The notes beneath the pieces were generated by a model. That model ran no database searches. It saw only the letters and a program-made list of their open reading frames with translations, and had not been told where the DNA came from. From Clostridiales bacterium (GTDB lineage: Bacteria; Bacillota; Clostridia; Christensenellales; JAISNN01), in contig JAITOU010000026.1 in NCBI GenBank assembly GCA_031289755.1, positions 1 to 64,000 of the forward strand: a DNA stretch of 64,000 bases, read 5' to 3'. The stretch's first letter is position 1; every line of letters starts with the position of its first letter. Shown piece by piece: positions 5,712-62,620 of the stretch. The position numbers and the translations under genes are program-made.

Positions 5712-5868
5712 GGACTTAATACGGTAGACGGCGCACACATCTAAGCCCAATCTTTTATGCGTATGCGGCTCGTTATAAACCGCTTACATAGCTCTGCTAT
5801 GCTACGCCCGAACCGCATACACAAAAATCTTGAACTTATCCGTGCGCGCCGTCTACCGTATTAAGTCC
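5712..5868. repeat. dispersed palindromic element, copy A
   Basis: The ends at 5712-5738 and 5842-5868 are inverted repeats matching at 26 of 27 positions. Inside, GTATGCGG/CCGCATAC and a central CATAGC-TCT-GCTATG hairpin extend the palindrome. Layout and size (157 bp) match copies at 7.4, 39.0 and 59.6 kb, although this is the most divergent copy internally. No coding capacity is evident. Confidence 0.75.
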
Positions 5869-39024: not shown

Positions 39025-39181
39025 TAGACTTGAACCAACTTAGACGGCGGCATCTATTTCGTCTTTTAGGCTTATACATTGTTGCATTATCCTAATGCAG
39101 CGATGCTACACGTCGTAAAATGCGCCTCGTCTAACCCAAAAATCCGAAAAATCTGCCGCCGTCTAAGTTAGTTCAAGTCTA
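39025..39181. repeat. dispersed palindromic element, copy C
   Basis: The ends 39025-39052 and 39154-39181 are inverted repeats matching at 27 of 28 positions (TAGACTTGAACC...GTTCAAGTCTA). The interior has the family core GTTGCATTATCCTAATGCAGC, then GCTACACGTCGTAAAATGCGCC. The element fills the gap between the DUF21-like gene and dxs and has no coding capacity. Confidence 0.85.
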
Positions 39182-39377: not shown

Positions 39378-41543
39378 TTGCATATCGTGCCCGATGTCAA
39401 AAAAATAAGTATAGAAGCATTGCAAAAATACGCTTCTAACCTCAGAACACACATCATAAACGCCGTCAAAAAGAACGGCGGACATCTTGCGTCCAATTTG
39501 GGAGTTGTCGAGATAGTTTTGGCTATGCACCGCGTTTTTGATGCGAAAAATGATAAATTTATATTTGACGTGGGGCATCAATGCTATGTACATAAAATGC
39601 TTACGGGACGGGCGGAAGCCTTTGCCGATTTGAGAAAAAGCGGCGGAATAAGCGGATTTCCTAATCCCTTAGAGAGTCCTTGCGACGCCTTTGTGACGGG
39701 ACATAGCGGTACTTCGGTCTCTCTCGCTTGCGGTTATCTGCGTGCGCGCAGGGCGGAAGAGACGGCATACCGCGTCGTGGTTTTGATAGGCGACGGCGCG
39801 ATGACGGGCGGAATGATACACGAAGCTTTGTATGATTTGCGCGGTATAGAAGGCAAGGCAATTATCATAATCAACGATAACGGACGACCCTACGGCGGTC
39901 AAGAATCGGGTTTTTCGGCATATCTTGACGATATAAGGAAAGGTTTGATAAAAAAACCCTTTGAAGAATACGGACTTGCTTATTTAGGACCGGTAGACGG
40001 ACACGATTTAAACGCTCTCACAAAGGCATTTTTGCAAGCTGAGTCGGAAGAGCAAAGTGTGATAATCCATGCCATAACGACAAAAGGCAAGGGGATGCCC
40101 GAAGCGGAGAATGAGCCGGAAAAATATCACGGCTTGCCGCGTCCGGGAGCTTCCGCAACGCCCGATACGGAGCTTTTGGAAGGGGCTTTTTGTGCGTCTT
40201 GCGGTGTCCCGACGGACGCAAACGGCGCGGTACAGAACCGCGTTGTCGGCAGTGCCGCATTTAAAACCTTTTCTCAAATAGCCGGCGAAGCCGTTTGCGA
40301 GTGTGCGCAAAAGGATTTGCGCGTAGCTGCGGTTACGGCGGCGATGAGAGATGGAACGGGCTTTGCGGATTTTGCAGCACGTTTTTCGGACAGGTTTTTT
40401 GATGTGGGGATATGCGAGGACCACGCCGTCACGATGAGTGCCGCTTTGAGCAGGCAGGGCTTGATACCTTATGTGGCAGTGTATTCGTCGTTTTTGCAAA
40501 GAGCTTTCGACAGTATTGTGCACGACGTGGGAATAATGTCTAACAATGTCCGCTTTCTCATTGACCGAGCCGGGTTAGTTCCGGAGGACGGCGAAACGCA
40601 TCAGGGAATCTTCGACGTAGGATTTTTGAGCCTTATTCCCGAAATGACGGTATTATCGCCGAAGGACGGCGGCGAGCTGAGAACAATGATAGAATGGTCG
40701 CTCAAATACAAAGGGCCGCTTGCCATTCGTTATCCTAAGGCAAAAACTTGCGATACGTCGTTAAACGCCTTTAATTCGGCTTTTAACGGACTTTCTCAAT
40801 GCAGTGAGTTCATGGTCGGGAATTACGATTTTGCGCCGCATGGCTCAAATGACGCCGTCAAACGGGCATTTCACGATAAAAACATACATTTCAAAGGCGC
40901 GGCGGTTAAAAAGGACGTTTATGCGGCTGACGGTGTGGGTTATTCCGAAGTCGCCGATTATTTACAGCGGAGCGACCGACTATCGGACGGACAAGGGGGC
41001 GTTTTTGAAGGCATTTTAAATCCGTCGTCGAGAAATCCTTCAAGAAAAAATTTCGTGTCTTACAACGCAAATGATGGGCTTAAACGGGGTGTTTGTGATT
41101 TTGCGGTCAAAAATGCCGTCAATTATCCCGATTTTCTCCGTATGCGCAGCTTCGGTCGCGAAAATGCCCCTTATGCCGTTGTTGTTTCCGGCGCGGTCAT
41201 GTTGAGCGAGTCTTTAAAAGCCGCAGAGATATGCCAAAGGACGTACGGCTTTGAAACGGAGATTTTTTATGCGGCAGCTTTAAAGCCCTTCGATAGGGCG
41301 GGGCTTAGCGGCTTAGCGGACAAAAAACATATCTTTGTAATCGAAGACAACGCGCCTTCCGGCGGCTTGGGGAGCGAAGTGTCGGCATTTTTTGCCGAAT
41401 ATGCCAAAAGTCCGCCGGTACACCGCTTTGCGGTCGAAAGCGGCTATCCGGCTCGCGGTACGCGCTCCGAGCTTTTAAGGACCGAAAGACTCGATGCGAC
41501 GAGTTTGGCGGCGAGAATGTCCGCAATAGTCAAAAAGCTCTAA
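39378..41543 (+). CDS. dxs: 1-deoxy-D-xylulose-5-phosphate synthase, atypical
   Basis: TTG 39378 is taken as start because AAAGGAG lies six bases upstream and the family start (KKISIEALQKYASNLR) follows soon after. The 721-residue enzyme condenses pyruvate and glyceraldehyde-3-phosphate with TPP, the first step of the MEP isoprenoid pathway. Family motifs are NGGHLASNLGVVE, FDVGHQCYVHK, GDGAMTGGM...NDN, GPVDGH, and DRAGLVPEDGETHQGIFD. Two oddities: the stretch after NDN, normally about 70 residues, is shortened to about 35. About 120 extra residues (nt about 40770-41130) lie between the pyrimidine-binding and C-terminal transketolase domains. Confidence 0.88.
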   Translation: MHIVPDVKKISIEALQKYASNLRTHIINAVKKNGGHLASNLGVVEIVLAMHRVFDAKNDKFIFDVGHQCYVHKMLTGRAEAFADLRKSGGISGFPNPLESPCDAFVTGHSGTSVSLACGYLRARRAEETAYRVVVLIGDGAMTGGMIHEALYDLRGIEGKAIIIINDNGRPYGGQESGFSAYLDDIRKGLIKKPFEEYGLAYLGPVDGHDLNALTKAFLQAESEEQSVIIHAITTKGKGMPEAENEPEKYHGLPRPGASATPDTELLEGAFCASCGVPTDANGAVQNRVVGSAAFKTFSQIAGEAVCECAQKDLRVAAVTAAMRDGTGFADFAARFSDRFFDVGICEDHAVTMSAALSRQGLIPYVAVYSSFLQRAFDSIVHDVGIMSNNVRFLIDRAGLVPEDGETHQGIFDVGFLSLIPEMTVLSPKDGGELRTMIEWSLKYKGPLAIRYPKAKTCDTSLNAFNSAFNGLSQCSEFMVGNYDFAPHGSNDAVKRAFHDKNIHFKGAAVKKDVYAADGVGYSEVADYLQRSDRLSDGQGGVFEGILNPSSRNPSRKNFVSYNANDGLKRGVCDFAVKNAVNYPDFLRMRSFGRENAPYAVVVSGAVMLSESLKAAEICQRTYGFETEIFYAAALKPFDRAGLSGLADKKHIFVIEDNAPSGGLGSEVSAFFAEYAKSPPVHRFAVESGYPARGTRSELLRTERLDATSLAARMSAIVKKL

Positions 41544-41609
41544 AAAATTGTTTCGCATATTTAAAAGAAATAAAAAACCGAAAAGCTACCGAAATATTAT
41601 GCAATTTCA

Positions 41610-41637
41610 AAACTCCCGAAAAAGGGAGTTTATTTTT
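41610..41637 (+). terminator. terminator of dxs
   Basis: AAACTCCC (41610-41617) pairs with GGGAGTTT (41624-41631) around GAAAAA, followed by ATTTTTAT. Confidence 0.75.
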
Positions 41638-41639
41638 AT

Positions 41640-44600
41640 AAAAGTTTTCAATATCAAAGCGGCGAAAAAAATGATTAAATTTTTGCGAGTTAATTTTTTA
41701 AGACGGGTGGGGGTGCGTTTTGAAATTTTTTTGGATTACAAAAATAATGCGGATTTTTTTGAGAAAATTGTGCAAAGCAAAAAATCCGTGAGAAAGACAG
41801 GCGATTTCTCATGTTTTTTAAAGAAAATAACGGGGAAAGTTTTGAAAAAAGCCGTTTAAAAAAACAGAAATAAAAAATTTCTCCGGCGCATGAAAACAAG
41901 TGTTAAGTATTTTTTTATAACCGAAAAGTTCTTGCTCGAATTATCGGCTTGGAAACCGTAAGCGGACAATCGGTTTTTTAGCGTAGCAAAAAATTTTTAA
42001 AATTTATTTTTGTTATTTAATATTGCCTGCGCTTTGGAATCTGCGGAGCTGAATGATAGGGGAATGCCGAGTGATTAAAATATTTGAATTGTTATCGATT
42101 TAGAGAATATGGGGATTATGCAGACTTCGCCGCGATATGTTGTTAGCGCGAAAATTCATAAAAGAAATATTATCCGAGTTATCTGCGGATTATTTTAACA
42201 GAAGGTTTTTATGACGTGTCCGATTTTTAAAGAAGTCGGGAACGGATTGTTTTCGTTTCCGTTACCGTCCTTTCGGGCGAAAATGAAAAATATTGATTAC
42301 GACTTCCGTTAGTCGAAACGCAGCTTGGACGCGCTTTTGATTTTCGGATTTTTGCAAAAGGATATCCGGAATTGAAATGTTACAAAACGAAGACCAACGA
42401 AGTGACGGTGGGGTTATCTCAAAAGATATATATCGCTTGACGCGTCGCGGAAAGGGTAGCAAAGAGAAAGTCGGCGGACTTACCGTTACTTTTTTTTAAG
42501 AGTGGGCGGCGTCGCGAAATCTTTGTTTCGGTATAGCGGTTGAAGTGCTAAAAAATCCGTGTTGCGACAGGGGAAGGAAGCCGCGCTTTTTGCGAAAATT
42601 CAAGAGTGTCGCGGTGCGTATCCGAAGCTGACAACCGAGCATACGGAGTGTTATAGGGCAACTTGCGGCGGAGGAGTATAGGAAAAGCTCCTTGATTTTG
42701 GAGGCGCGTCCTTTGACGGAGTGAGTGACGGGCAAGAAAAAGAAGTGGTAGATTAGGTGGCATTTGATATAAAAATAAAATGTCTGCGGCGATAAAAAAA
42801 TTCTGCAAAAACACAAGCTTTGCCGTTATAAAAAAATTGAATACTTTGATATAGACAAATAGCATACTAAAAAACAGGAAAAGCTCGCCGACAAAAGTGA
42901 TGAAAATATCACTTTTAAAAAGCCCCCGAAAGAGTATTTCTGCGAGGGTTTTTTCTTTTATTTTTATATGAGATTTACGTTGCGCAAACGGAAAACGACA
43001 TATTTTCTTGTCAAAAAAAACGGTATAGAGCCATGCGAAACGCGGTTTTTGTATTTTTACGGCGTTTTAATTATTCTAAAAATAAAATCAAACACGGTCG
43101 GCGCGAACGGTTTTTGCCGTTACTTTTCGGAGAAGATTTTTTTGTTTGTCCAAATAAAATTTTGCTGAAAAAACAAAGTTTTTTACGGCAAAAAATCCTT
43201 TATTTTTATTATCGAAAAAGATTGACAGAAGCAATGCTTTTTAACGGAGCTTTTTTAGGCGGAAATTCTCAAACATACGGGCGATTTCGGCAAGAAAGCT
43301 ATCGCCGGAAATGCCGCATTTTCAAGGGCTGAAATGGGGTTTGGACAGGAGTTTAATAGGTTTTTAATGTAGAGAATCGAGACATGAAAAAGAAGGTTTT
43401 AAAGGGCATTTAAAGGCTTAATTTTGCGTGCGAAAATCAGCAAAAAAACCGCTCTTTCAGACGTGTTTTTTAAGCCCGAACCGTTATGCCGATAGCGGCT
43501 TTTCTTGCCTTAAAATTGTCGTAACATGGATAACATTTGTCAATGCTAAAACATTGCTTTAAAAGGCGCAAAAACTCTAAGGTAAAGTGCTTTTTAGCGT
43601 GAAAAATCTTAAAAAAATTGCTTATTCGGAGTGGGGGAAGGGGGCTAAAAATGTCAAAAAAATAAGCTCATTTTTTTTTGTTTCTGAATGAAGCCTTTGC
43701 TATAAAAAGACATAGTAACGTATATATCATATGCTTGAAAAAATCTTAAATAAATTTAACGAGAAAAATCTGTTTTTCTTCGGATTTGTGAACGGGTTTT
43801 TTAAGGCTTGTGAAGGTTTTTTAAACAATGTAAACGGCGTTACGTTTTATGCCGAATGCCGCGAATTTGACGGTATAGAAACGAATTTTGGTGGTTTTTC
43901 GGAGATAAATTGCGCAGAAATAATGTTAAATAAAGCTTTTTAAAATGCGGAAGTGTTATAGCATATAATGGATTTTTGGAATGGATTTCGCGGCTGATTC
44001 GCGTGAAAACGATATAGCACTATCGATAGATTCTGTAGACGATAAAGTGGTAAATAATATAATATTTGCAACACCGCCCGACCGTCATCAGTTACAATCG
44101 GAAGACTTTTTACCCATATCTAAAAAATGAAAAAATAACAGTTCTTCTCCGTATTGCCAAAGATATTCGTACGCATATGTGACGGCATAGATTAGTCGTT
44201 ATGTCATATTGTTTAAGACAAAATAATGAAAAATTTAAAATAGACGCGCACCATATGTTATGGAATATATAGCTACTATGTCATAATAAACAACGTTCTA
44301 TACTTGATATATGATATAAAATTATTATAACTTAGTTTATTATATTTTCGCTTATTTAATAGGGAATATATCGACATATATTATAATAATTGCGGTGAAT
44401 TTGCGCTCAAATTGCGTTTTTTGCCGCTTTATTTAAGGGAATAGAGCTGCCTTTGGCGGTATTAAGACGGTTGATTATCTCGATTAAAGAGCAAAAAACG
44501 GTCATTTTGACGAGTTGAAACGTAGATTTGGGGAATAAATTGCTTGATTTTCCTAAGAAAAAATGTCAAAAATCGGTGGAATTGTATCCCTTTTTGTCAT

Positions 44601-45332
44601 TAAAAGTCTTAAAACGCAAAAATACGTCAAAAACAATATACTTTACGATAAAATTGGGCATGGTTTTAATATCTTCCGAGCCGATGCGGAGCTTCGTCGG
44701 CTTTATTGAAGAATTATGGTAAAACTTTATACGGAAGTAGGGGTGTATTTAAGGTAATCGGAGCGATGAAATGGCGGAAATCGCTAAATTTGGGGCATAA
44801 TTTGTCTTTTTAATGAGATTTTTTAATTAAAATGCTCTTGATTTTCAGGTATTTAATCGGTAAATTTCTCTTAAAGCGGACGATTTTATAGTAAAAGTTG
44901 GCTATATTTTATAATGCGCAAAAACTGTCATTTTAACGATTTGTGGAGCATTTTTGTCGTGTTATTTCTTTTTATTTTGGGAATTTATTTATAAAAACAA
45001 GTTCAAAATCGCTTCTAAAAGCGTTAAAAATGCGTTTTTTAGGTGTTTTTTACGAGAAAATGCGGCTTTTTTGTTGTAAATCGGGCTTTTTGAAGTAATT
45101 TTTAATTCATATAGTCGGTTGTCTAATGGGCAAATATGAAAAGAAATATTAAGACAAACGAGTGTGCCAAGCCAAGACGTAGCTTTATTTGGTGTATTCA
45201 GACAGATATTTTTTGACATTTATCGGGGGGGGATACGCTTGATTATTGTAGGGGCAGAATGGGGGATTTTAGGGGATTTTTTGTTAAATTGTAAAAAAAA
45301 ATAATTTTTTTTAAAAAACTTTTGAAAAACTG
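41640..45332. other. 3.7-kb AT-rich region without a convincing gene
   Basis: Frames here are short, low-complexity (Lys, Phe, Asn) and lack ribosome binding sites; the best, 43731-43943, has no start signal. Visible structure: a 9-bp hairpin at 42893-42916; CGGTATAG at 42529, 43021 and 43871; and two copies of GCAAAAA-C-GTCATTTT-ACGA (44491 and 44917). The 42.0-42.8 kb part has scattered coding-like codons and may be a heavily decayed gene. No homology to a known element was recognised. Confidence 0.55.
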
Positions 45333-45361
45333 TTGACAAACTCAATTTGTTCTGATATAAT
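45333..45361 (+). promoter_or_regulatory. perfect-consensus sigma-70 promoter of a non-coding unit
   Basis: TTGACA (45333-45338), 17 nt, TATAAT (45356-45361): an exact consensus promoter. No reading frame of note begins within 1.4 kb downstream. Confidence 0.8.
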
Positions 45362-45836
45362 CCATTACATTAAACACAAATTTTTTTCTTGACTTCTTTG
45401 CCTTGCTTTTGTGTGAAATGTAACTTGACAACATTAATATATGTACTTTTTAAAATTTTCTTGCTTGAATTTGTTTGCAGTAGAGAATAAATATACATCA
45501 AATTTTGTATATTTACTCACGTTTACTTTGTTTTTCGACGGTATAGACCCGAAAAGCTGTATATTTACTACATACGATAAACATTCTGATGTTAAATACA
45601 TATGTTAATGAAGGCGGCAAAAAGACGGTTTTTGCTTAAAAATTGTCTTTAACTAAAATAAACGATGTAAGTTTATTTTGTGACGTAGCGTTTATTGAGT
45701 AGAGAATTAATGAAAGAATATCAATGGAATCAAGACATAGTTTTTGGAAATCATTTTTAAATTTGTTTTCGGAAAGGTCTTGATAAAACGAACAAGGTAA
45801 TCAAGTAGGATTGTTGGGCGTTTTACTGAAAGCTTT

Positions 45837-45894
45837 CTCTCATTTTTAAATTTGTTGTTTAAACTCATATTTGCCGCAAATTTAAAAATGAGAG
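45837..45894. repeat. 18-bp perfect inverted repeat (hairpin unit 1)
   Basis: CTCTCATTTTTAAATTTG (45837-45854) and its exact complement at 45877-45894, loop 22 nt. The 14-nt core CATTTTTAAATTTG also occurs as a direct copy at 45752-45765. Confidence 0.85.
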
Positions 45895-45932
45895 CCGGAA
45901 ACATTCATGTGTAGGAGAATGGGTTCCGGAAT

Positions 45933-46053
45933 CTCTTTTTTAAATTTTTAAACAGTTTGAAGGTGATGAGTCACTGCTTGGGCGATTTGTGAGATTGGTG
46001 TTAGGAACAAATTGTGCGGTAACGGTATTTCGCTGAGTAAATTTAAAAAAGAG
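45933..46053. repeat. inverted repeat (hairpin unit 2)
   Basis: CTCTTTTTTAAATTT (45933-45947) is exactly complementary to 46039-46053 across a 91-nt loop. The arm is related in sequence to units 1, 3 and 4. Confidence 0.75.
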
Positions 46054-46311
46054 CGTCCCGAACGGGATTATGTGTGTAGACAGAATTTTTTAAGAGAATT
46101 TTTGATAAGCGGAAATCCGAAGATAGTTACTGATTTGCGTATGGGTGAGAAGAGGATTTCTTTTTAAACTGTTTTTTGCCGTTTGCAACAGAAGGTGTTA
46201 TTTTGTTGTTTGTGGTGAGAGACTAATTTTATTGTCTTTTCTATATTCTGCTAGGTTCGAGAATTATCGGTCTTAAAATTTAGTGTAATCTATCTTAGTG
46301 GGGGAGGAATA

Positions 46312-46461
46312 TCTTTTTTAAATCTATCGCGTACTTAAAGGTTTTATTTGTGCGGGATTTTGCGGCATGTATATCTTTTTTTGAGATACGCAAAAGAACG
46401 GAAATATTTTTGCCTACTTCTCCTTTCATTTTCCTTTAAGTCGCGATAGATTTAAAAAAGA
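46312..46461. repeat. 29-bp inverted repeat (hairpin unit 3)
   Basis: Positions 46312-46341 pair with 46433-46461 over 29 bp with a single one-base bulge; the arm begins TCTTTTTTAAATCTATCGCG. The loop is 91 nt and contains a smaller GTATATCTTTTTTTGAGATACGC-type hairpin near 46369-46391. Confidence 0.88.
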
Positions 46462-46564
46462 GGTTCTTAAATGCAAAATTAAAGGAAACCCCTTTTTTAT
46501 TATGAACTTGATTTTATCTTCTTTGAATTTTGAGAAGGGAATAGCATAACAAGTTTGTATTACA

Positions 46565-46702
46565 AATATCTTTTTTAAATCTATCCCGGTCTTAAAGGGA
46601 AGCTGCTTTCTTGATTGTGTTGCTTAAAATTTTTGCGGCGAACGAAAATGCCCAACCTTTTTCGTTTCCCTTTAAATCCGTGGTGGATTTAAAAAAGATA
46701 TT
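46565..46702. repeat. 37-nt imperfect inverted repeat (hairpin unit 4)
   Basis: Positions 46565-46601 pair with 46666-46702, about 31 of 37, with perfect ends. The arm starts AATATCTTTTTTAAATC and so shares 17 bases with unit 3 but has a different inner part and loop. Confidence 0.85.
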
Positions 46703-46713
46703 TTTTTATTTTT

Positions 46714-46745
46714 AAGCACACGATTGAAACGCGTGCTTTTTATTT
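46714..46745 (+). terminator. terminator at the end of the hairpin array
   Basis: AAGCACACG (46714-46722) pairs with CGCGTGCTT (46730-46738) with one mismatch, followed by TTTTATTTATT. Confidence 0.7.
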
Positions 46746-46941
46746 ATTCTTAATAATTTTAAAAAACAGGTACTTTGAAAGGAAGCGGCAGTGTTATTGC
46801 GGTATAGTAACGTCAGCGAACGTTATATTTGTACGGCAAGCTTAAATGCCAAAATCGAAAAACAGAATTAAAACGGATTTTTGCGGAACAATAACTAAAA
46901 AAGCGGTATTAAAAAAAACGAGCAACGGAGCGTGGGAAATA

Positions 46942-49900
46942 ATGAAAAAAGTTTTAAAAAGATACTGTGGCTACATATTTGCATCGGCTTTGATATTTGC
47001 AATCGGTGCAATAACCGTCTCGGTCGTCACAACGACTGCGGACAAAACGGACGAGAGAGTCTTTGCGGCAGGGAACGCAACCGCGCTCGATGTGCCGGAC
47101 TGCGACTATGAATATATCATTTTGCAAAGTGGCAATGATTATGCTATCTCCAAACAAAGTACGGTGGGCGGAGACGGCTTTACCGGAACAATCGAAGAAG
47201 TGAGCGATATGCTCAATGCCCAAAACAGCGGCAAGGTAACTAAACTTCATGTAAATTCAGTAGTAAACACTTCCGCCGTGTTTGTATTGAGTCAAGGCAC
47301 TTATATCTTTGACGGAACGGGAATGCTAAAAAACTCGAACACGGATTTGATTAAACTAATAGGCGGAACGAATCTATACTTTATAGGAGGAACGTTCTCG
47401 GCGGTCGGCGGATATAATGTCGCTGTGCATAATGCAGGCGACGGAGCTATAACGGTAAAGGGCGGCGTTATAACAAGCGAGTACAATGACTTTTCGTCTA
47501 AGGGAACGATATATCTCGAAGGCGGCATATCCGGCACTCCCGCTCTGTCGATAAGCGGCGGAGTCATACGCAACGATGCGGACGATATGTTGTCGTTTTA
47601 TTCAAAAGCCGTATACAATGGCGGAGCGGGGGATGTGCGTATATCCGGCGACGCATTGATATATTGCGGAAAATCGGAAAAGCTTCTCAACGAATTAGGA
47701 ATGGCGATACACAATGCCGGTTTGGGAAATATAATTGTAGAAGAAAATTCTCCGGGTGTCAAAATATTATCAAAAGGCAACATATCGTTATATAATACTT
47801 CCGTCGGAGAGATAGAGATAAACGGCGGAGTTGTTTTGTCGGAAGAAGGCAATGCCGTCCTTAACACACAAGACGGCGGAAGAATAGTTGTCAACGGCGG
47901 AGAGATTAGTTCCGGCGGCTCGGGCAGAGCATTATATATGAATGCCGGCAACCTGACCGTGAATGCCGGAAAAATAACCGCTTACAACGGCGCGGCTGTA
48001 TATGTAAATTCCGGCAAAGCAAAGTTGAACGGCGGAAATATATCAAGCGGCGGTAAGTATGCGGTCTATATCGGCGCAGGATACAACGGTGTGGAATTTG
48101 TTCTCGGAAACGTATCTATAAACGGAACGGTATGGTTAGACGGAGCTGCAAAAAACAAAAGAAGCTTGACGGCGGATTTTAAGGCGGCATCCGTTACGGT
48201 CTTTGAATTTTACAATTTTAATGTAAGAGACGTGTTGTTTTTAAACGGCGGGGCTTTTGCGGCGCAATTTGTTTCGGTAGACGGTAAATACTGCGTTGCA
48301 AATAAAGCGTGCAATGCGAGTCTATACTTTCTAATTGACCATGCTGCCGTTGCGGCGCAAGGCAAAACATACGACGGAAGCACCAATATCGACGTCGGAC
48401 TTTCGGCGGTGTTTTATAATGGCGCAACCGAAAGTGACGCTGCTAAAATGACGATTCCGGCAGCCTATTATAATATCGTCGGAAGCTTTGATGACAAAAA
48501 TGTCGGCAGAAGCAAGAGCTTGATCGTAACTATAACCTTGAAAGATAACGAATATGTTTTTGCAAACGGCAAATTCACGGCTTCTTTTAAAGCTATCGCC
48601 GATATCTTGATAAGGGAATTGACGGTAAACGGAATGACGGCACAGGATAGGGAATACGACAAGACAAAGACCGTCACTTTATCGGGCGGCTCTTTGGAGA
48701 ACGTATCTGCCGGCGACATCGGAAATTCGGATAAATTGAATTTTGTTTCAGGCTTTGGAATTATAGAAAGCGAGCTGCCGGGCGTGAAGAAGCGCGTAAC
48801 TGCGAATATAATATTGACAGGCAAGGAAGCCGTGAATTATAAGCTTATACAGCCCGACGGCTTGACGGTGAATATCGTTCCGAAGGAATTGACGATAACG
48901 GGAATAACGGCGGTACAAAGGGAATATGACGGCACGACCGTCGTTGTCTTGAAGGGCGGAGTTTTGAACGGCGTAATCGGGAAAGATACCGTCACCTTTT
49001 ATCTCGGCGAAGGAATACTTGAAGCCGTAGATGCCGGACGGAATAGAAGCGTAAAGACCAATATAGTTTTGGGCGGCTCTGAAAGAAAAAATTATACCTT
49101 AGTACAACCGAGCGATATTAAAATGTCCGTATCTCTAAAAAGGTTGACAATAGAAGGAATGGCAGCCTATGACAAGCCGTATGACGGAAATGTCAACGTT
49201 ACCTTTAAAGACGGAGTGCTTGTCGGAGTATTGCCGGGCGACACAGCGCACCACAATGTCAATTCTGCGCAAACCGCGTCCGCCGGAGTAGGCAAAAAGG
49301 CGGTAATTTTTGATATAGTTTTGAGCGGAAGCGATTATAAAAACTATGAGATAATACTTCCCGAAATCGACATCTATATCTATCCTGCGGATAGAAATCA
49401 TATGATAGACTATGATTTGAGTCTGTTATTCGGAGATGTTTATTATGTATATGACGGCAAATTTCACGGTATAGAAACGGATGAAACTAAAATTATACCC
49501 GAAATCAAGAGTATATCCTATGACGGAACGTCGGTAAAGTATGTGACCGACGGCATCAAAAAAACGACCGCGAAATTGACGGCTGAGAGCGGTTTTGGGT
49601 TTAGATTAAAGGACGGAACGTATGGGGAAGAGACGGAGATATCAAGGGGGATAGGTATTCTTCCGAGAAAAATCATATTGGCAGCAATTGCAAAAGATAA
49701 GAAATATGACGGAAAGGATACCGCCTATGTTGAGTTGATATTCGGCAATTTGGCGGACGGCGAGACATTTAAAAGTGGAATAGATTTTATAGAAAACAGT
49801 GCTTTTGTCGATTTTGCGGCAGGACAGGATAAGGAGATAAATACGGCAGTCGTATTGCTCAACCCGAATTATGTTTTTGAAAACGGCGGCAATTTATATA

Positions 49901-50043
49901 CCGTAAACACGAGTACCGATATAATAAGCGATTTGGCGTGGTATATCTCTTTGCAGGTAGCGGCGACGGTTGTATTTTTCTTCTTCTTTATCAGGGGACA
50001 TATAATTAGAAATAAAAGGTATCCCAAAAATAAATCGACATAA
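46942..50043 (+). CDS. surface protein with glycine-rich beta-helix region and YDG repeats
   Basis: ATG 46942 (GGAG 11 bases upstream) is preferred over 46846, giving 1033 residues. A signal sequence (KRYCGYIFASALIFAIGAITVSVV) comes first. Residues about 100-400 hold many GGxI-type turns (for example GGVITSEYN, GGVIRNDADD, GGNISSGGKYAVYI), typical of a right-handed beta-helix. From about 470 there are six YDG-type domains, marked by KTYDGSTNIDVG, REYDKTKTVTLSGG, REYDGTTVVVLKGG, KPYDGNVNVTFKDG, YVYDGKFHGIET and KKYDGKDTAYVEL. A C-terminal membrane helix and basic tail (about 1000-1033) anchor it; no LPxTG motif is present. An adhesin-like or wall role is inferred. Confidence 0.85.
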   Translation: MKKVLKRYCGYIFASALIFAIGAITVSVVTTTADKTDERVFAAGNATALDVPDCDYEYIILQSGNDYAISKQSTVGGDGFTGTIEEVSDMLNAQNSGKVTKLHVNSVVNTSAVFVLSQGTYIFDGTGMLKNSNTDLIKLIGGTNLYFIGGTFSAVGGYNVAVHNAGDGAITVKGGVITSEYNDFSSKGTIYLEGGISGTPALSISGGVIRNDADDMLSFYSKAVYNGGAGDVRISGDALIYCGKSEKLLNELGMAIHNAGLGNIIVEENSPGVKILSKGNISLYNTSVGEIEINGGVVLSEEGNAVLNTQDGGRIVVNGGEISSGGSGRALYMNAGNLTVNAGKITAYNGAAVYVNSGKAKLNGGNISSGGKYAVYIGAGYNGVEFVLGNVSINGTVWLDGAAKNKRSLTADFKAASVTVFEFYNFNVRDVLFLNGGAFAAQFVSVDGKYCVANKACNASLYFLIDHAAVAAQGKTYDGSTNIDVGLSAVFYNGATESDAAKMTIPAAYYNIVGSFDDKNVGRSKSLIVTITLKDNEYVFANGKFTASFKAIADILIRELTVNGMTAQDREYDKTKTVTLSGGSLENVSAGDIGNSDKLNFVSGFGIIESELPGVKKRVTANIILTGKEAVNYKLIQPDGLTVNIVPKELTITGITAVQREYDGTTVVVLKGGVLNGVIGKDTVTFYLGEGILEAVDAGRNRSVKTNIVLGGSERKNYTLVQPSDIKMSVSLKRLTIEGMAAYDKPYDGNVNVTFKDGVLVGVLPGDTAHHNVNSAQTASAGVGKKAVIFDIVLSGSDYKNYEIILPEIDIYIYPADRNHMIDYDLSLLFGDVYYVYDGKFHGIETDETKIIPEIKSISYDGTSVKYVTDGIKKTTAKLTAESGFGFRLKDGTYGEETEISRGIGILPRKIILAAIAKDKKYDGKDTAYVELIFGNLADGETFKSGIDFIENSAFVDFAAGQDKEINTAVVLLNPNYVFENGGNLYTVNTSTDIISDLAWYISLQVAATVVFFFFFIRGHIIRNKRYPKNKST

Positions 50044-50502: not shown

Positions 50503-50524
50503 CCGCCTTGATGTTTTTGGAAAT

Positions 50525-50566
50525 AAAAAAAGCGTTTTCGCAAATTGTGAAGACGCTTTTTTTGTT
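50525..50566 (+). terminator. terminator
   Basis: AAAAAAAGCGTTTTC (50525-50539) pairs with GAAGACGCTTTTTTT (50549-50563) with one G-U pair; the T-run is part of the right arm. Confidence 0.85.
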
Positions 50567-50672
50567 TGTGTCAAAAGATTTTTATCGGTCATATTATGTA
50601 TCAGCCCTTGTCTTTTTTTTGACGGGGAGTATCATAGAATATGCAAAAAAAGCGAAATATAATAGGAGTATT

Positions 50673-52367
50673 ATGAATAATAATTTTTACGGAACGGATT
50701 GCGGACAGGAATATTACGGCGGTAATTGTCTGAATTATACACAAGACAGCCGTTGCTGCGGCGGTGGGTGTTGTCCGAGTCCGATATATTTGAGAGGACC
50801 GCAAGGTCCGATTGGTCCGCAAGGACCTATCGGTCCGATAGGTCCGATGGGGCAGAGAGGTCTTGTCGGTCCGATAGGTCCGATAGGTCCGCAAGGACCG
50901 AAAGGCGATATCGGTTCGACAGGCGCGACAGGGCCGACGGGTCCGACGGGAGCAACGGGAGCAACGGGAGCGACAGGTCCGATAGGTCAGACAGGCGGAA
51001 CGGGAGCGACGGGTCCGATAGGTCCGATAGGACCTGCCGGCGCAACGGGCGCAACGGGAGCGACAGGAGCGACAGGTCCGATAGGACCGATAGGTCCGAC
51101 GGGGGCAACGGGGGCGACGGGTCCGATAGGTCCTGCCGGAGCGCAAGGACAGCAAGGTCCGCAAGGTCCGCAGGGGATAGAAGGGTCGCAAGGTCCTACC
51201 GGAGAAAACGGTCAAGCAGGACCGATAGGTCCGCAAGGACCTGCCGGAGTGTCCGGTCCGCAAGGTCCGTCAGGTCCGTCCGGTGCAACAGGGGCAACGG
51301 GAGCGACAGGTCCGGCAGGCGCAACAGGTCCGTCCGGCGCGGCAGGACCGCAAGGTCCGCAAGGCGCGCAAGGAGCGCAGGGTGAAACGGGTTTACAAGG
51401 ACCGATAGGTCCGATAGGACCGCAAGGACCTATGGGAGCGCAAGGTATAGAAGGTCCTGCCGGTCCGGCAGGCGCGACCGGTCCGATAGGTCCGGTAGGC
51501 GCGACAGGCGCAACGGGTCCGATAGGTCCGGTAGGCGCAACGGGAGCAACCGGTCCGATAGGTCCGATAGGTCCGGCAGGCGCAACGGGAGCAATAGGTC
51601 CGATAGGTCCGGCAGGCGCAACGGGCGCAACAGGTCCGATAGGTCCGGCAGGACCGACGGGGGCAACAGGACCGGAAGGTCCGGCAGGCGCGACGGGTGC
51701 AACGGGTCCGATAGGTCCGGCAGGCGCGACGGGGCCGATAGGTCCGGCAGGCGCGACGGGGGCAACGGGTCCGATAGGTCCGGCAGGACCAACGGGGGCA
51801 ACAGGTCCGGAAGGTCCGGCAGGTCCGACGGGCGCAACAGGTCCGATAGGTCCGCAAGGCCCGACAGGTCCTGCCGGATTTTCTCCGACGGTTGTCGTAA
51901 CGGAGAATACGGATGCCGCTTACGGCTATGAAATAATAACCTCCGGCGGAAGTACGGTCATACCGCCGCTGAGAAAAGCTTATCAGGTATACAATGCGAA
52001 TTTGGCTGTACTCGGCAGCGTATTGAGTGCGGCGGTTGGCGACGTATTATTTGAAGTAGTAAGGGGAGTAGCGACATTGACTGCCAGAATCAGATTGATA
52101 GGCAGCGATACCGTTTATGCCGATTTGAATGCGGCGGCGATAAATGTATTGAGCGGAACAAATTTCGGCATAGCATTGAATACGACGCTTTTGACTCCGG
52201 CATATACGGTTTTGAGCAGCGGTTTGACGATAAATTCGGCTGAAATATACGAGATTACGCTAAGGCAAAGCAATGTCACCGACGCTTCGGCGGCACTCTG
52301 CAAGATTCGCGTATTTTCTTCCGATAATGCGACCAAGACGACCGTATGGGTAGATTGGATTTATTAA
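50673..52367 (+). CDS. collagen-like (Gly-X-Y) surface or exosporium-type protein
   Basis: ATG 50673 follows AGGAG, giving 564 residues. The head (1-38) is rich in Tyr, Gly and Cys ([10 protein letters not shown]) and could cross-link or anchor. About 120 Gly-X-Y triplets (residues about 40-402; mostly [12 protein letters not shown]) should form a collagen triple helix. The C-terminal 160 residues ([23 protein letters not shown] ... VWVDWIY) look like a BclA-type trimerising beta domain. The repeat DNA is itself highly repetitive and prone to length change. Exosporium location is inferred by analogy with BclA; no signal peptide is present, which fits a coat protein made in a mother cell. Confidence 0.88.
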
Positions 52368-52477
52368 AAGGCAACAAGGACAAACCCTGCGGATAAGAGC
52401 CTTTATTAAAATGCGGCAAAGCCGTATGGATAGATGAGCCATCAAACTATAAATGTTACTGTTTTTTAAACTAAATA

Positions 52478-52507
52478 TTGACATTGTACGGCCGATTGTA
52501 TTATAAT
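52478..52507 (+). promoter_or_regulatory. strong promoter of the ior operon
   Basis: TTGACA (52478-52483), 18 nt, TATAAT (52502-52507); the expected start is near 52514. Confidence 0.75.
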
Positions 52508-52532
52508 AGCCATACAAGGTTTCGGGTAAGGT

Positions 52533-52577
52533 AAATCGCCCGTCCTTAACAGAGATGTTTCGGACGGGCGATTTTTC
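52533..52577 (+). terminator. early terminator, possible attenuator of the ior operon
   Basis: AAATCGCCCGTCC (52533-52545) pairs perfectly with GGACGGGCGATTT (52562-52574), then T residues. It lies only about 20 nt after the predicted transcription start and 65 nt before iorA. CGGG at 52523-52526 could compete for CCCG in the left arm, suggesting an alternative fold. Either a short RNA is made or iorAB transcription is attenuated. Confidence 0.65.
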
Positions 52578-52640
52578 AAATCCGCTACAATATGTTCGTC
52601 ATATAGGTATAGGACTAATCTAATAATCGGAGATAGATAT

Positions 52641-54464
52641 TTGGGAAAAAAATTATTGATGGGGAATGAAGCTATCGCGCTCGGCGCATTAAGGGCGGGG
52701 GTGTCCGTCGTCACGGGTTATCCCGGCACGCCTTCCTCCGAGATTTTGGAAACGGTAGCAAAACAAAATGCCGACGGCGTATATGTCGAATGGTCCGTCA
52801 ACGAAAAAGCCGCTTTGGAGATTGCCGCAGGCGCGGCTTATTCCGGAGCAAGGGCAATGGTAACTATGAAGCAGGTCGGACTGAACGTCGCGTCCGACCC
52901 GCTGATGAGCTTGAATTATGTCGGAATAAAGGGCGGCATGGTCATCGTTTCGGCAGACGACCCCGGACCTATATCTTCGCAGACGGAGCAGGACACAAGG
53001 CAATTCGGCGCGTTTGCTAAGGTCGCCGTTTTTGACCCGTCAAATCCGCAGGAAGCTTATACGATGATAGCCGACGCTTTTGACTGCTCCGAAAAGTACG
53101 GAAGACCGGTACTCTTCCGTCCGACGACAAGAGTATGTCACGGTACGGCGTCGGTGGAAATTTTGCCGCCGCTCGCCAAAAGGAGTCCGCAAGGCTTTAC
53201 AAAGGACGGCGGTAAATGGGTGATATTTCCTGCGCTGGCATACGCGAATCACAAAAAAATCGAAAGCTCGCTCAAAGAAATGAGCCGTGAATTTTCTGCA
53301 TACGCCGCAAACAGCTTGACGGGAGACGGCAAAAAAGGCATTGTCTCAGGCGGTGTAAGTTTCGCCTATACCTGTGAAGCTTTGGACGATTTGGCGGCTT
53401 GTAGGGGCATTCCGGAGCCTTACAAGCTGTTTAAAGTGTCCGCCTATCCTTTTCCCGAGCAAAAAGCATTGGAATTTTTGAAAGGATTAGATGAGATTCT
53501 CGTGACCGAAGAGCTTGACCCGGTGATAGAATCCTGTCTGCTCCGTCTAATCGGAGCGCATAATCTGCAAGTAAAAGTCAAAGGAAAGCTTGACGGAACG
53601 ATGCGTAACGCCGGTGAAAATACCGTCGCCGAAATACAAGAAGTCCTTTCGGGATTTTTTAACGTCGATGTGCCTGCTAAAAAGACGCTAAGTCCGTCGC
53701 CTATATTGCCGGGCAGACCGCCCGTGCTTTGCGCAGGGTGTCCGCACCGAGCGTCGTTTTTTGCGGTAAAGGAAGCGGTGAAAGAAAGTGCGGCGAAGAG
53801 AAAAGCCGTATATTCGGGAGATATAGGTTGTTATACGCTCGGAAATGCCGCGCCTCTCGATATGGTCGATACTTGCCTTTGCATGGGGGCGGGGATAACT
53901 GTGGCGCAGGGGATAAACAGAGTAGAACCCGATACATTAAATTTTGCGTTTATAGGTGATTCGACTTTTTTTCACAGCGGCATCACAGGAATAATAAATG
54001 CGGTGTACAACAAATCGAATATCATAATAGTCATTTTGGACAATTACACTACGGCGATGACGGGCGGTCAGCCGCATCCCGGAACGGGCAAAACAGCTTC
54101 GCGCAAGGACACCGTTAAGGCAGATATCCACGGTATAGTAACGTCTCTCGGCGTATCGGAATTAATCCGTGCCGACGCCTTTGATTTGAATGCGGCAAAG
54201 GATGCCGTCAAGAGAGTGATAGACAAGAAGGGCGTACGCGTCTTGTTGTTTGAAGGAGCTTGCGTATCGGGCATATCAAAAAGCGCGTTGCTTTCGGTAG
54301 ACGCGGGGTTATGCACGGGCTGTAAGCTGTGTATCAAAAAGACCGGCTGCCCGGCTCTCGCTTATAATGCAAAAAAGGTTGTCATCGATGCGGAGCTGTG
54401 TACGGGGTGCGGATTGTGTGCAAGCGTATGTCCGGCAGGGGCGATGCTTGCCGTAAAGCGATAA
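52641..54464 (+). CDS. iorA: indolepyruvate ferredoxin oxidoreductase alpha subunit
   Basis: The start is TTG 52641 with GGAG ten bases upstream. The 607-residue protein has the pyruvate-oxidoreductase-type N-terminal domain (MGNEAIALGALRAGVSVVTGYPGTPSSEI). Next is the TPP-binding domain (LCAGCPHRASFF, GDIGCYTLG, GDSTFFHSGI, NYTTAMTGGQPHPG). A C-terminal ferredoxin-like segment binds two 4Fe-4S clusters (CTGCKLCIKKTGC and CTGCGLCASVCP). With IorB it oxidatively decarboxylates aryl pyruvates from Trp, Phe and Tyr to aryl-acetyl-CoA and reduces ferredoxin. Confidence 0.96.
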   Translation: MGKKLLMGNEAIALGALRAGVSVVTGYPGTPSSEILETVAKQNADGVYVEWSVNEKAALEIAAGAAYSGARAMVTMKQVGLNVASDPLMSLNYVGIKGGMVIVSADDPGPISSQTEQDTRQFGAFAKVAVFDPSNPQEAYTMIADAFDCSEKYGRPVLFRPTTRVCHGTASVEILPPLAKRSPQGFTKDGGKWVIFPALAYANHKKIESSLKEMSREFSAYAANSLTGDGKKGIVSGGVSFAYTCEALDDLAACRGIPEPYKLFKVSAYPFPEQKALEFLKGLDEILVTEELDPVIESCLLRLIGAHNLQVKVKGKLDGTMRNAGENTVAEIQEVLSGFFNVDVPAKKTLSPSPILPGRPPVLCAGCPHRASFFAVKEAVKESAAKRKAVYSGDIGCYTLGNAAPLDMVDTCLCMGAGITVAQGINRVEPDTLNFAFIGDSTFFHSGITGIINAVYNKSNIIIVILDNYTTAMTGGQPHPGTGKTASRKDTVKADIHGIVTSLGVSELIRADAFDLNAAKDAVKRVIDKKGVRVLLFEGACVSGISKSALLSVDAGLCTGCKLCIKKTGCPALAYNAKKVVIDAELCTGCGLCASVCPAGAMLAVKR

Positions 54465-54501
54465 AAGAATAAAGCAACGCCGATTAGGCGAAACGGGAAA
54501 T

Positions 54502-55092
54502 ATGATGAAGCTTGAAAAAAAATATAATTGTATAATAACGGGGGTCGGCGGTCAAGGCACGGTGCTTTTGTCGCGCCTTATATGCGGTGCGGCAACGGAG
54601 AAGGGCTTTGCGGTCGGCGGTTCGGAGACGATAGGAATGGCGCAAAGGGGCGGAAGCGTAGTGAGCCATGTCAGAATAGGGGAGCGCGTCTTGTCGCCGC
54701 TCGTTCCGTACGGAAAAGCCGACGTGATAATAGCCTTAGAGCCTGCCGAAGCCGTTCGCGTCCTGCCTTATCTCGGTAAGGACGGAGAGATGTTTGTACT
54801 TGACCGAGCCGTTCAACCGGCAGGCTGCGAACTTAGAGGCGGACGCGCTTATGCGACTTTTGACATGACGTCTTATCTCAAAGAAAACGTCGAGAAGCTT
54901 ACCGTAGTAAATTACCAAAGGCTCGTCGGCATTTTGGGCGGCGCAAAAGCCGTAAATACCGCTATGCTCGGCGCAGCCGTCAAAAAAGGAGTTTTTCCGT
55001 TCTGTATACAAGATGTGGAAAAAATCATCAGGGAACGTCTGCCGGAAAAATTTTGGGCGGTAAATACGGAAGCGTTGACGTGTTCCGTTTAG
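54502..55092 (+). CDS. iorB: indolepyruvate ferredoxin oxidoreductase beta subunit
   Basis: The 196-residue protein matches the gamma-type subunit of 2-oxoacid:ferredoxin oxidoreductases: CIITGVGGQGTVLLSRLI, VGGSETIGMAQRGGSVVSHVR, ADVIIALEPAEAVRVLPYL and NTAMLGAAVKKG. It completes the enzyme with IorA, 37 bases upstream. Two adjacent Met codons (54502, 54505) leave the exact start open; the ribosome binding site is weak. Confidence 0.95.
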   Translation: MMKLEKKYNCIITGVGGQGTVLLSRLICGAATEKGFAVGGSETIGMAQRGGSVVSHVRIGERVLSPLVPYGKADVIIALEPAEAVRVLPYLGKDGEMFVLDRAVQPAGCELRGGRAYATFDMTSYLKENVEKLTVVNYQRLVGILGGAKAVNTAMLGAAVKKGVFPFCIQDVEKIIRERLPEKFWAVNTEALTCSV

Positions 55093-59610: not shown

Positions 59611-59774
59611 TAGATTAGTCCTGAAACCGTACCCGTCGGCAACTTTTGCGTCTTTTTGTCATATACATCGTTGCATTTTCCTTATGTAGCTAAGCTACAT
59701 ATCGTCAAATGCGCCTTGTATAAGCCAAAAATCCGCTAAAATTTGCTCGGCGTTTAGGGTTTAGGATTAATCTA
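59611..59774. repeat. dispersed palindromic element, copy D
   Basis: The ends TAGATTAGTCC and GGATTAATCTA are imperfect inverted repeats. The interior carries the family core GTTGCATTTTCCTTATGTAGC, the 8-bp hairpin TATGTAGC-TAA-GCTACATA, then GTCAAATGCGCCTTGTATAAG. It fills most of the space between DUF2344 and aspS. Confidence 0.8.
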
Positions 59775-62524: not shown

Positions 62525-62551
62525 CCGAACCTAAAAAGGTTCGGTTTTTTT
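62525..62551 (+). terminator. terminator of the aspS operon
   Basis: CCGAACC (62525-62531) pairs with GGTTCGG (62538-62544) around TAAAAA, followed by seven T residues. Confidence 0.9.
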
Positions 62552-62552
62552 A

Positions 62553-62620
62553 TTAGACTTGAATCCTAAATTAAACGACGGCGTCTATTTCGTCTTTTAG
62601 GGTTATACGTTAAGATAGGG
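62553..62620. repeat. dispersed palindromic element, truncated copy E
   Basis: TTAGACTTGAATCCTAAA...GACGGCGTCTATTTCGTCTTTTAGGGTTATACGTTAAG matches the left half of copy C in order and spacing, then stops near 62613. The right half and central hairpin are absent. Confidence 0.75.

Follow-up and report, generated by a model that had tools for sequence, protein, structure and literature searches.

A predicted noncoding transcription unit with duplicated hairpins upstream of a YDG-repeat protein gene in a Clostridiales bacterium

Promoter, terminator and the gene-free stretch between them

The window analyzed here is a 64,000-nucleotide stretch of DNA on contig C41 of a Clostridiales bacterium genome (1.98 Mb, 46 contigs), from a lineage of which five congeners were compared. 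Between the DXS gene and a gene whose secreted product carries four YDG repeats, the window holds a unit of about 1.4 kb that runs from a promoter through a terminator (45333-46742) and ends 200 nt before the YDG gene, which is on the same strand. Upstream of the unit, 3.8 kb of DNA after DXS (41543-45333) is also gene-free. It has no long stems and no trace of a protein family, and hairpins resembling terminators occur at 41610-41631 and about 42917-42954. Downstream of the YDG gene, 50508-55092 carries genes for a collagen-like protein, IorA, and IorB, in the same order as in the congeners G002 and G005; the collagen-like protein probably starts at an internal methionine (MNNNFYG...) rather than at the TTG at 50508. 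The features of the unit and its downstream gene are as follows.

45333-45361, + strand: sigma-A-type promoter of exact consensus, from reading the sequence and a promoter scan
45368-46742, + strand: predicted noncoding transcript of about 1.37 kb, its start placed from the promoter
45837-45894, + strand: hairpin E1, perfect 18-bp stem CTCTCATTTTTAAATTTG with a 22-nt loop (z -5.1)
45923-46063, + strand: hairpin E2, 25-nt arms, 88% complementary, with a 91-nt structured loop (z -2.6)
46307-46466, + strand: hairpin E3, arms of 25 nt (92%), lengthened toward the loop by CTTAAAGG/CCTTTAAG (z -6.6)
46564-46703, + strand: hairpin E4, 38-nt arms (87%), a paralogue of E3 by alignment (z -8.3)
46612-46630, + strand: part of the E4 loop with complementarity to the terminator's 5' side, a weak candidate for a competing, antiterminator-type pairing (a fragment adopts this fold at -34.3 kcal/mol)
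46714-46738, + strand: intrinsic-terminator-like hairpin followed by TTTATTT (fold -8.6 kcal/mol, z -3.1)
46942-50043, + strand: secreted protein gene with four YDG repeats; the open reading frame opens at 46846, and the ATG at 46942 precedes the signal peptide

The promoter reads TTGACA at 45333, a 17-nt spacer, and TATAAT ending at 45361, with a TG before the -10 hexamer. This pattern occurs at 81 exact sites in the genome, versus a single site for the reversed pattern used as a control, which indicates that the match at 45333 is not due to chance and that exact-consensus sites are real promoters in this organism. It is the sole 12/12 site among 22 promoter-like matches between 41.4 and 47.1 kb. 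The first open reading frame of at least 80 amino acids follows 1,484 nt after the promoter, placing this gene-free stretch among the longest behind any of the 81 exact promoters; two kinds of exact site outrank it, a cluster of small, regulator-like genes (L322) and one site for which just 123 nt of sequence were taken.

The hairpin at 46714-46738 has the form AAGCACACG-ATTGAAA-CGCGTGCTT and contains one A.C mismatch, because of which a simple terminator scan missed it. Between promoter and terminator, no frame on either strand stays open for more than 65 codons, and there is no tRNA. Six-frame translations of 42.0 to 46.8 kb, with stops read through, matched nothing in Pfam, PHROG, or NCBIfam at an E value of 0.1 or lower. 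A preliminary description had read this region as an exact-consensus promoter driving a terminator-ended stretch with no credible reading frame, and all three elements of that description hold. Although a long gene-free stretch separates DXS from the YDG gene, a decayed protein gene or prophage remnant is so improbable that it can be practically dismissed, given the absence of any protein-family trace even through stop codons, the lack of DNA similarity to phage and plasmid collections, and the intact promoter and terminator. From the promoter, the terminator, and the absence of genes, 45333-46742 is likely a noncoding transcription unit.

A family of hairpins within the unit

Four stems stand out by a strand-neutral inverted-repeat score: E4 (60), E3 (47), E2 (41), and E1 (40). 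Across 200 dinucleotide shuffles of the unit, scores peaked at 33, with a mean of 0.045 stems per shuffle reaching at least 30, and the best stem in the neighboring 3.7 kb of noncoding DNA scored just 28. The longest arm pair reaches 38 nt with 87% complementarity. The folding energy of the whole unit is also far below that of shuffled sequences (z of -7.6 for the + strand and -8.2 for the - strand), compared with z values of -2.6 and -1.9 for two upstream noncoding stretches. The preliminary description had counted at least seven long stems; four are clearly beyond chance, while the rest are weaker, those at 45432-45610 and 45485-45518 being borderline.

A 12-bp core duplex, UCUUUUUUAAAU/AUUUAAAAAAGA, is invariant among E2, E3, and E4, and in E1 one pair of this core is altered. 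Aligned over the three hairpins E2 to E4, the invariant core reads CTTTTTTAAAT/ATTTAAAAAAG, plus one further conserved pair. A covariance model built from E2 to E4 alone recovered E1, which had not been used in building it, with an E value of 0.0013, and gave no other convincing match in the window. The full-length alignment of E3 with E4 covers about 160 nt at about 64% identity, and their 5' arms are 91% identical, so since their duplication the stems have changed less than the loops. Judged by these similarities in sequence, E1 to E4 are paralogous modules of one hairpin family. Arms of different modules are able to cross-pair (inverted pairs I2, I3, I15, and I18).

Whether the pairing has been maintained as RNA or as DNA was addressed with several comparisons. 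Among the paralogues E2 to E4, nine two-sided pair changes keep the pairing, where shuffles give 4.1 and slid-structure controls no more than 4; this count comes from three sequences only, with a structure derived from those same sequences. It is weakly suggestive of selection on pairing, and DNA inverted repeats could equally have produced such changes. The non-Watson-Crick stem positions, which are few, comprise 4 G-U, 3 A-C, and 6 others. Composition alone predicts about twice as many G-U as A-C, so the mismatches are not enriched in G-U and give no sign of wobble tolerance on the + strand. The two strands fold equally well given their composition. Structured RNAs in AT-rich genomes usually have a raised GC content relative to other intergenic DNA (PMC8632094), and the unit has 31.7% GC, compared with 33 to 38% in the adjoining noncoding DNA. 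None of the mismatch, strand-folding, and GC tests points specifically to RNA-level selection.

The same genome harbors a 157-bp palindromic, MITE-like element with arms of 27 to 28 nt, ends TAGACTTG.../...CAAGTCTA, an apparent TA target, and a z of about -8. In the window it lies at 39025-39181, with partial copies at 59634-59756 and 62551-62611; the element at 5712-5868 is similar in structure only. Genome-wide, complete and partial copies together number roughly 20 or more.

Searches for related sequences

We scanned the unit with the Rfam 15 covariance models and found no match at the gathering score; at E values up to 10, the matches were at chance level and far below the cutoffs. The impression in the preliminary description that the region does not resemble OLE, GOLLD, ROOL, or HEARO agrees with the scan, in which raiA and group II introns went unmatched as well. 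BLAST with the unit as the query found no homologue in 60 relatives, including the 5 congeners, or in 396 genomes of the order. The arm-pair pattern, searched in 101 genomes (the own genome and 100 relatives), matched only the unit itself, and the E2-E4 covariance model, applied to the own genome and 60 relatives (61 genomes), found only E2 to E4. A search of the genome and the covariance model gave no second copy of the hairpins elsewhere in it. In three pattern scans of viral contigs, a 16-mer gave single isolated matches per contig and the two specific patterns gave none. The search of related genomes for conserved pairing that the preliminary description had proposed returned no homologue in any genome searched, and hence no cross-species covariation.

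Several candidates were rejected. An arm-pair match in the congener G005 (contig C55) lies in a GC-rich intergenic region with no corresponding hairpin, and weak BLAST matches in G004, G045, and G024 are AT-rich, 30 to 55 nt long, and were taken as chance. Of the stretches downstream of the other 80 exact promoters, L322 was the best candidate for a paralogous noncoding unit but holds clustered small genes; at this locus (contig C26, 43700-47460), tandem-duplicated short genes of the MINFNDVVAEE... type alternate with antisense HTH-like genes, and there are three exact promoters. Six further loci (L348, L310, L349, L338, L356, and L318) proved to be short leaders, small genes, or repeats.

As to the relatives themselves, the nearest DXS proteins in a collection of 84,980 species are about 42 to 44% identical, and no close relative is present there. 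In G005, ilvB, ilvN, and ilvC come after DXS. The collagen-like gene and the genes for IorA and IorB are kept in G002 and G005, on contigs that end short of the place of the unit.

The preliminary description had proposed an undescribed large structured RNA or a run of related small RNAs. The noncoding unit, its structure beyond chance, the relatedness of its modules, and the absence of an Rfam match agree with this proposal, whereas selection at the RNA level is not supported and no homologue was found. The proposal also did not consider that the unit may be the leader of the surface-protein gene at 46942; the noncoding unit itself stands.

Leader, RNA or DNA palindromes, and known systems

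The gap between the terminator and the YDG gene contains no sigma-A-like promoter, the best match of a consensus scan of the upstream 200 bp being 8/12, which is chance level. Of the 28 genes in the window that have a gap upstream, 22 show a match of at least 9/12, and the YDG gene is among the six without. Other YDG genes in the genus have a same-strand sigma-A promoter 166 to 445 nt upstream, with the exception of a further copy on contig C9. One of these surface genes, of the YDG type, lies in the same genome (L349, contig C34, about 250-700) behind an exact-consensus promoter and a 445-nt leader that holds four tandem repeats of about 37 to 40 nt (GGTTATAGACAACGGGCGCGGCAACGGCGGATATTAA).

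Since the YDG gene has no recognizable promoter and other YDG genes have one nearby, the YDG message probably originates from the promoter at 45333, which would make the unit its leader. The layout is that of an attenuation leader, with a promoter, a leader, a terminator, and a same-strand gene that by consensus scan has no promoter of its own. We therefore slightly favor, with a probability of roughly 0.4, the reading of the unit as a conditionally terminated giant leader of the YDG gene over that of a free-standing RNA. In the proposed mechanism, transcription from the sigma-A promoter at 45333 would mostly end at the terminator at 46714-46738, giving an RNA of about 1.37 kb, and expression of the YDG gene would need RNA polymerase to pass this terminator. 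The repeated stems, with their 12-bp core and cross-pairing arms, might set the level of readthrough through a bound factor or through refolding. Several points speak against this. At 1.58 kb, the leader would exceed those of other YDG genes several-fold, and the missing YDG promoter is weak evidence because the other promoterless genes in the window show that such a lack is not rare. Pairing of 46612-46630 with the terminator's 5' side could give a duplex of -12.9 kcal/mol, an energy that shuffled arms match in 15% of cases, so that the pairing is not significant, and this model of competing structures is only a lead. Nor is G-U in excess over A-C in the stems.

It is also quite possible, if tentative, that the unit encodes a free-standing, trans-acting structured RNA of about 1.37 kb, independent of the YDG gene, for example as a scaffold or sponge offering a protein four AU-rich double-stranded sites. 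The complete promoter-to-terminator unit, a structure well past chance, the duplicated modular hairpins with an invariant stem core, and a gene-free stretch near the longest behind any exact promoter are all in keeping with such an RNA. On the other hand, known large RNAs are widespread and this one would have no homologue in any searched genome, its GC content is not raised, neither the mismatches nor the folding z values prefer a strand, and the next gene on the same strand is the promoterless one.

This equal folding of both strands for their composition, together with stems that are nearly all Watson-Crick and whose exceptions are not enriched in G-U, would also be expected of an array of DNA palindromes with no RNA function, left by replication, recombination, or mobile-element processes in the region of 41.54 to 46.84 kb. 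We regard this as unlikely, even though the unit sits in about 5.3 kb of noncoding DNA and the genome has the family of 157-bp palindromic elements. The hairpins have no second genomic copy, no target-site duplication is visible, and the complementarity extends beyond the common core in a way particular to each module. Moreover, a strong promoter and a terminator exactly bracket the stems, and nothing comparable occurs in the remaining 3.7 kb of noncoding DNA.

Control of the surface gene by invertible, phase-variable segments or by a shufflon is highly improbable: copies of TCTTTTTTAAATCTATC do alternate in orientation upstream of the surface-protein gene, but the promoter is outside every inverted pair, the enclosed 22 to 110 nt contain no strong promoter, and a search of the genome for tyrosine recombinases found just two, on other contigs.

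A possible overall picture, though less probable than not, is that of a new, lineage-restricted modular RNA of about 1.4 kb whose four long hairpins with an invariant 12-bp core would let it act either as a multivalent platform made of RNA or as a leader of exceptional length, subject to conditional termination, for a surface-protein gene. If transcribed and structured, the unit would be longer than most described bacterial structured RNAs, built by duplicating one hairpin, and confined to a little-known lineage, and it would show a recent origin of large RNAs or giant leaders through module duplication. If the stems are DNA palindromes only, the unit is a warning against calling large RNAs on folding energy alone.

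Among known systems, OLE, GOLLD, ROOL, and the raiA motif are the closest in kind, in that the unit is a long, multi-stemmed predicted noncoding RNA. GOLLD RNAs are longer than 800 nt, and OLE, GOLLD, and ROOL are spread over many species with stems backed by covariation (PMC12286853). Unlike these three, the unit has no Rfam match, occurs in a single genome, consists of repeated AU-rich hairpin modules at 32% GC, and is not in a phage or tRNA context. It shares modules of 140 to 160 bp and long inverted arms with MITEs and other palindromic elements, such as the 157-bp family of its own genome; in contrast to that family, whose copies end in TAGACTTG/CAAGTCTA, its hairpins do not recur elsewhere in the genome, and the ends of their arms show no direct repeats that would mark a target duplication. 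Attenuator leaders of Firmicutes can carry repeated binding elements (PMC4027176; PMC3369931), as in the trp leader of Bacillus subtilis, where TRAP binds 11 (G/U)AG repeats (PMC4027176). The unit has no known ligand or protein motif, no significant competing pairing, and a leader that would span about 1.4 to 1.6 kb with four long hairpins, unlike those attenuators; it resembles them (trp with TRAP in B. subtilis, rplJL, and ANTAR-controlled eut) in its order of promoter, structured leader, intrinsic terminator, and same-strand gene.
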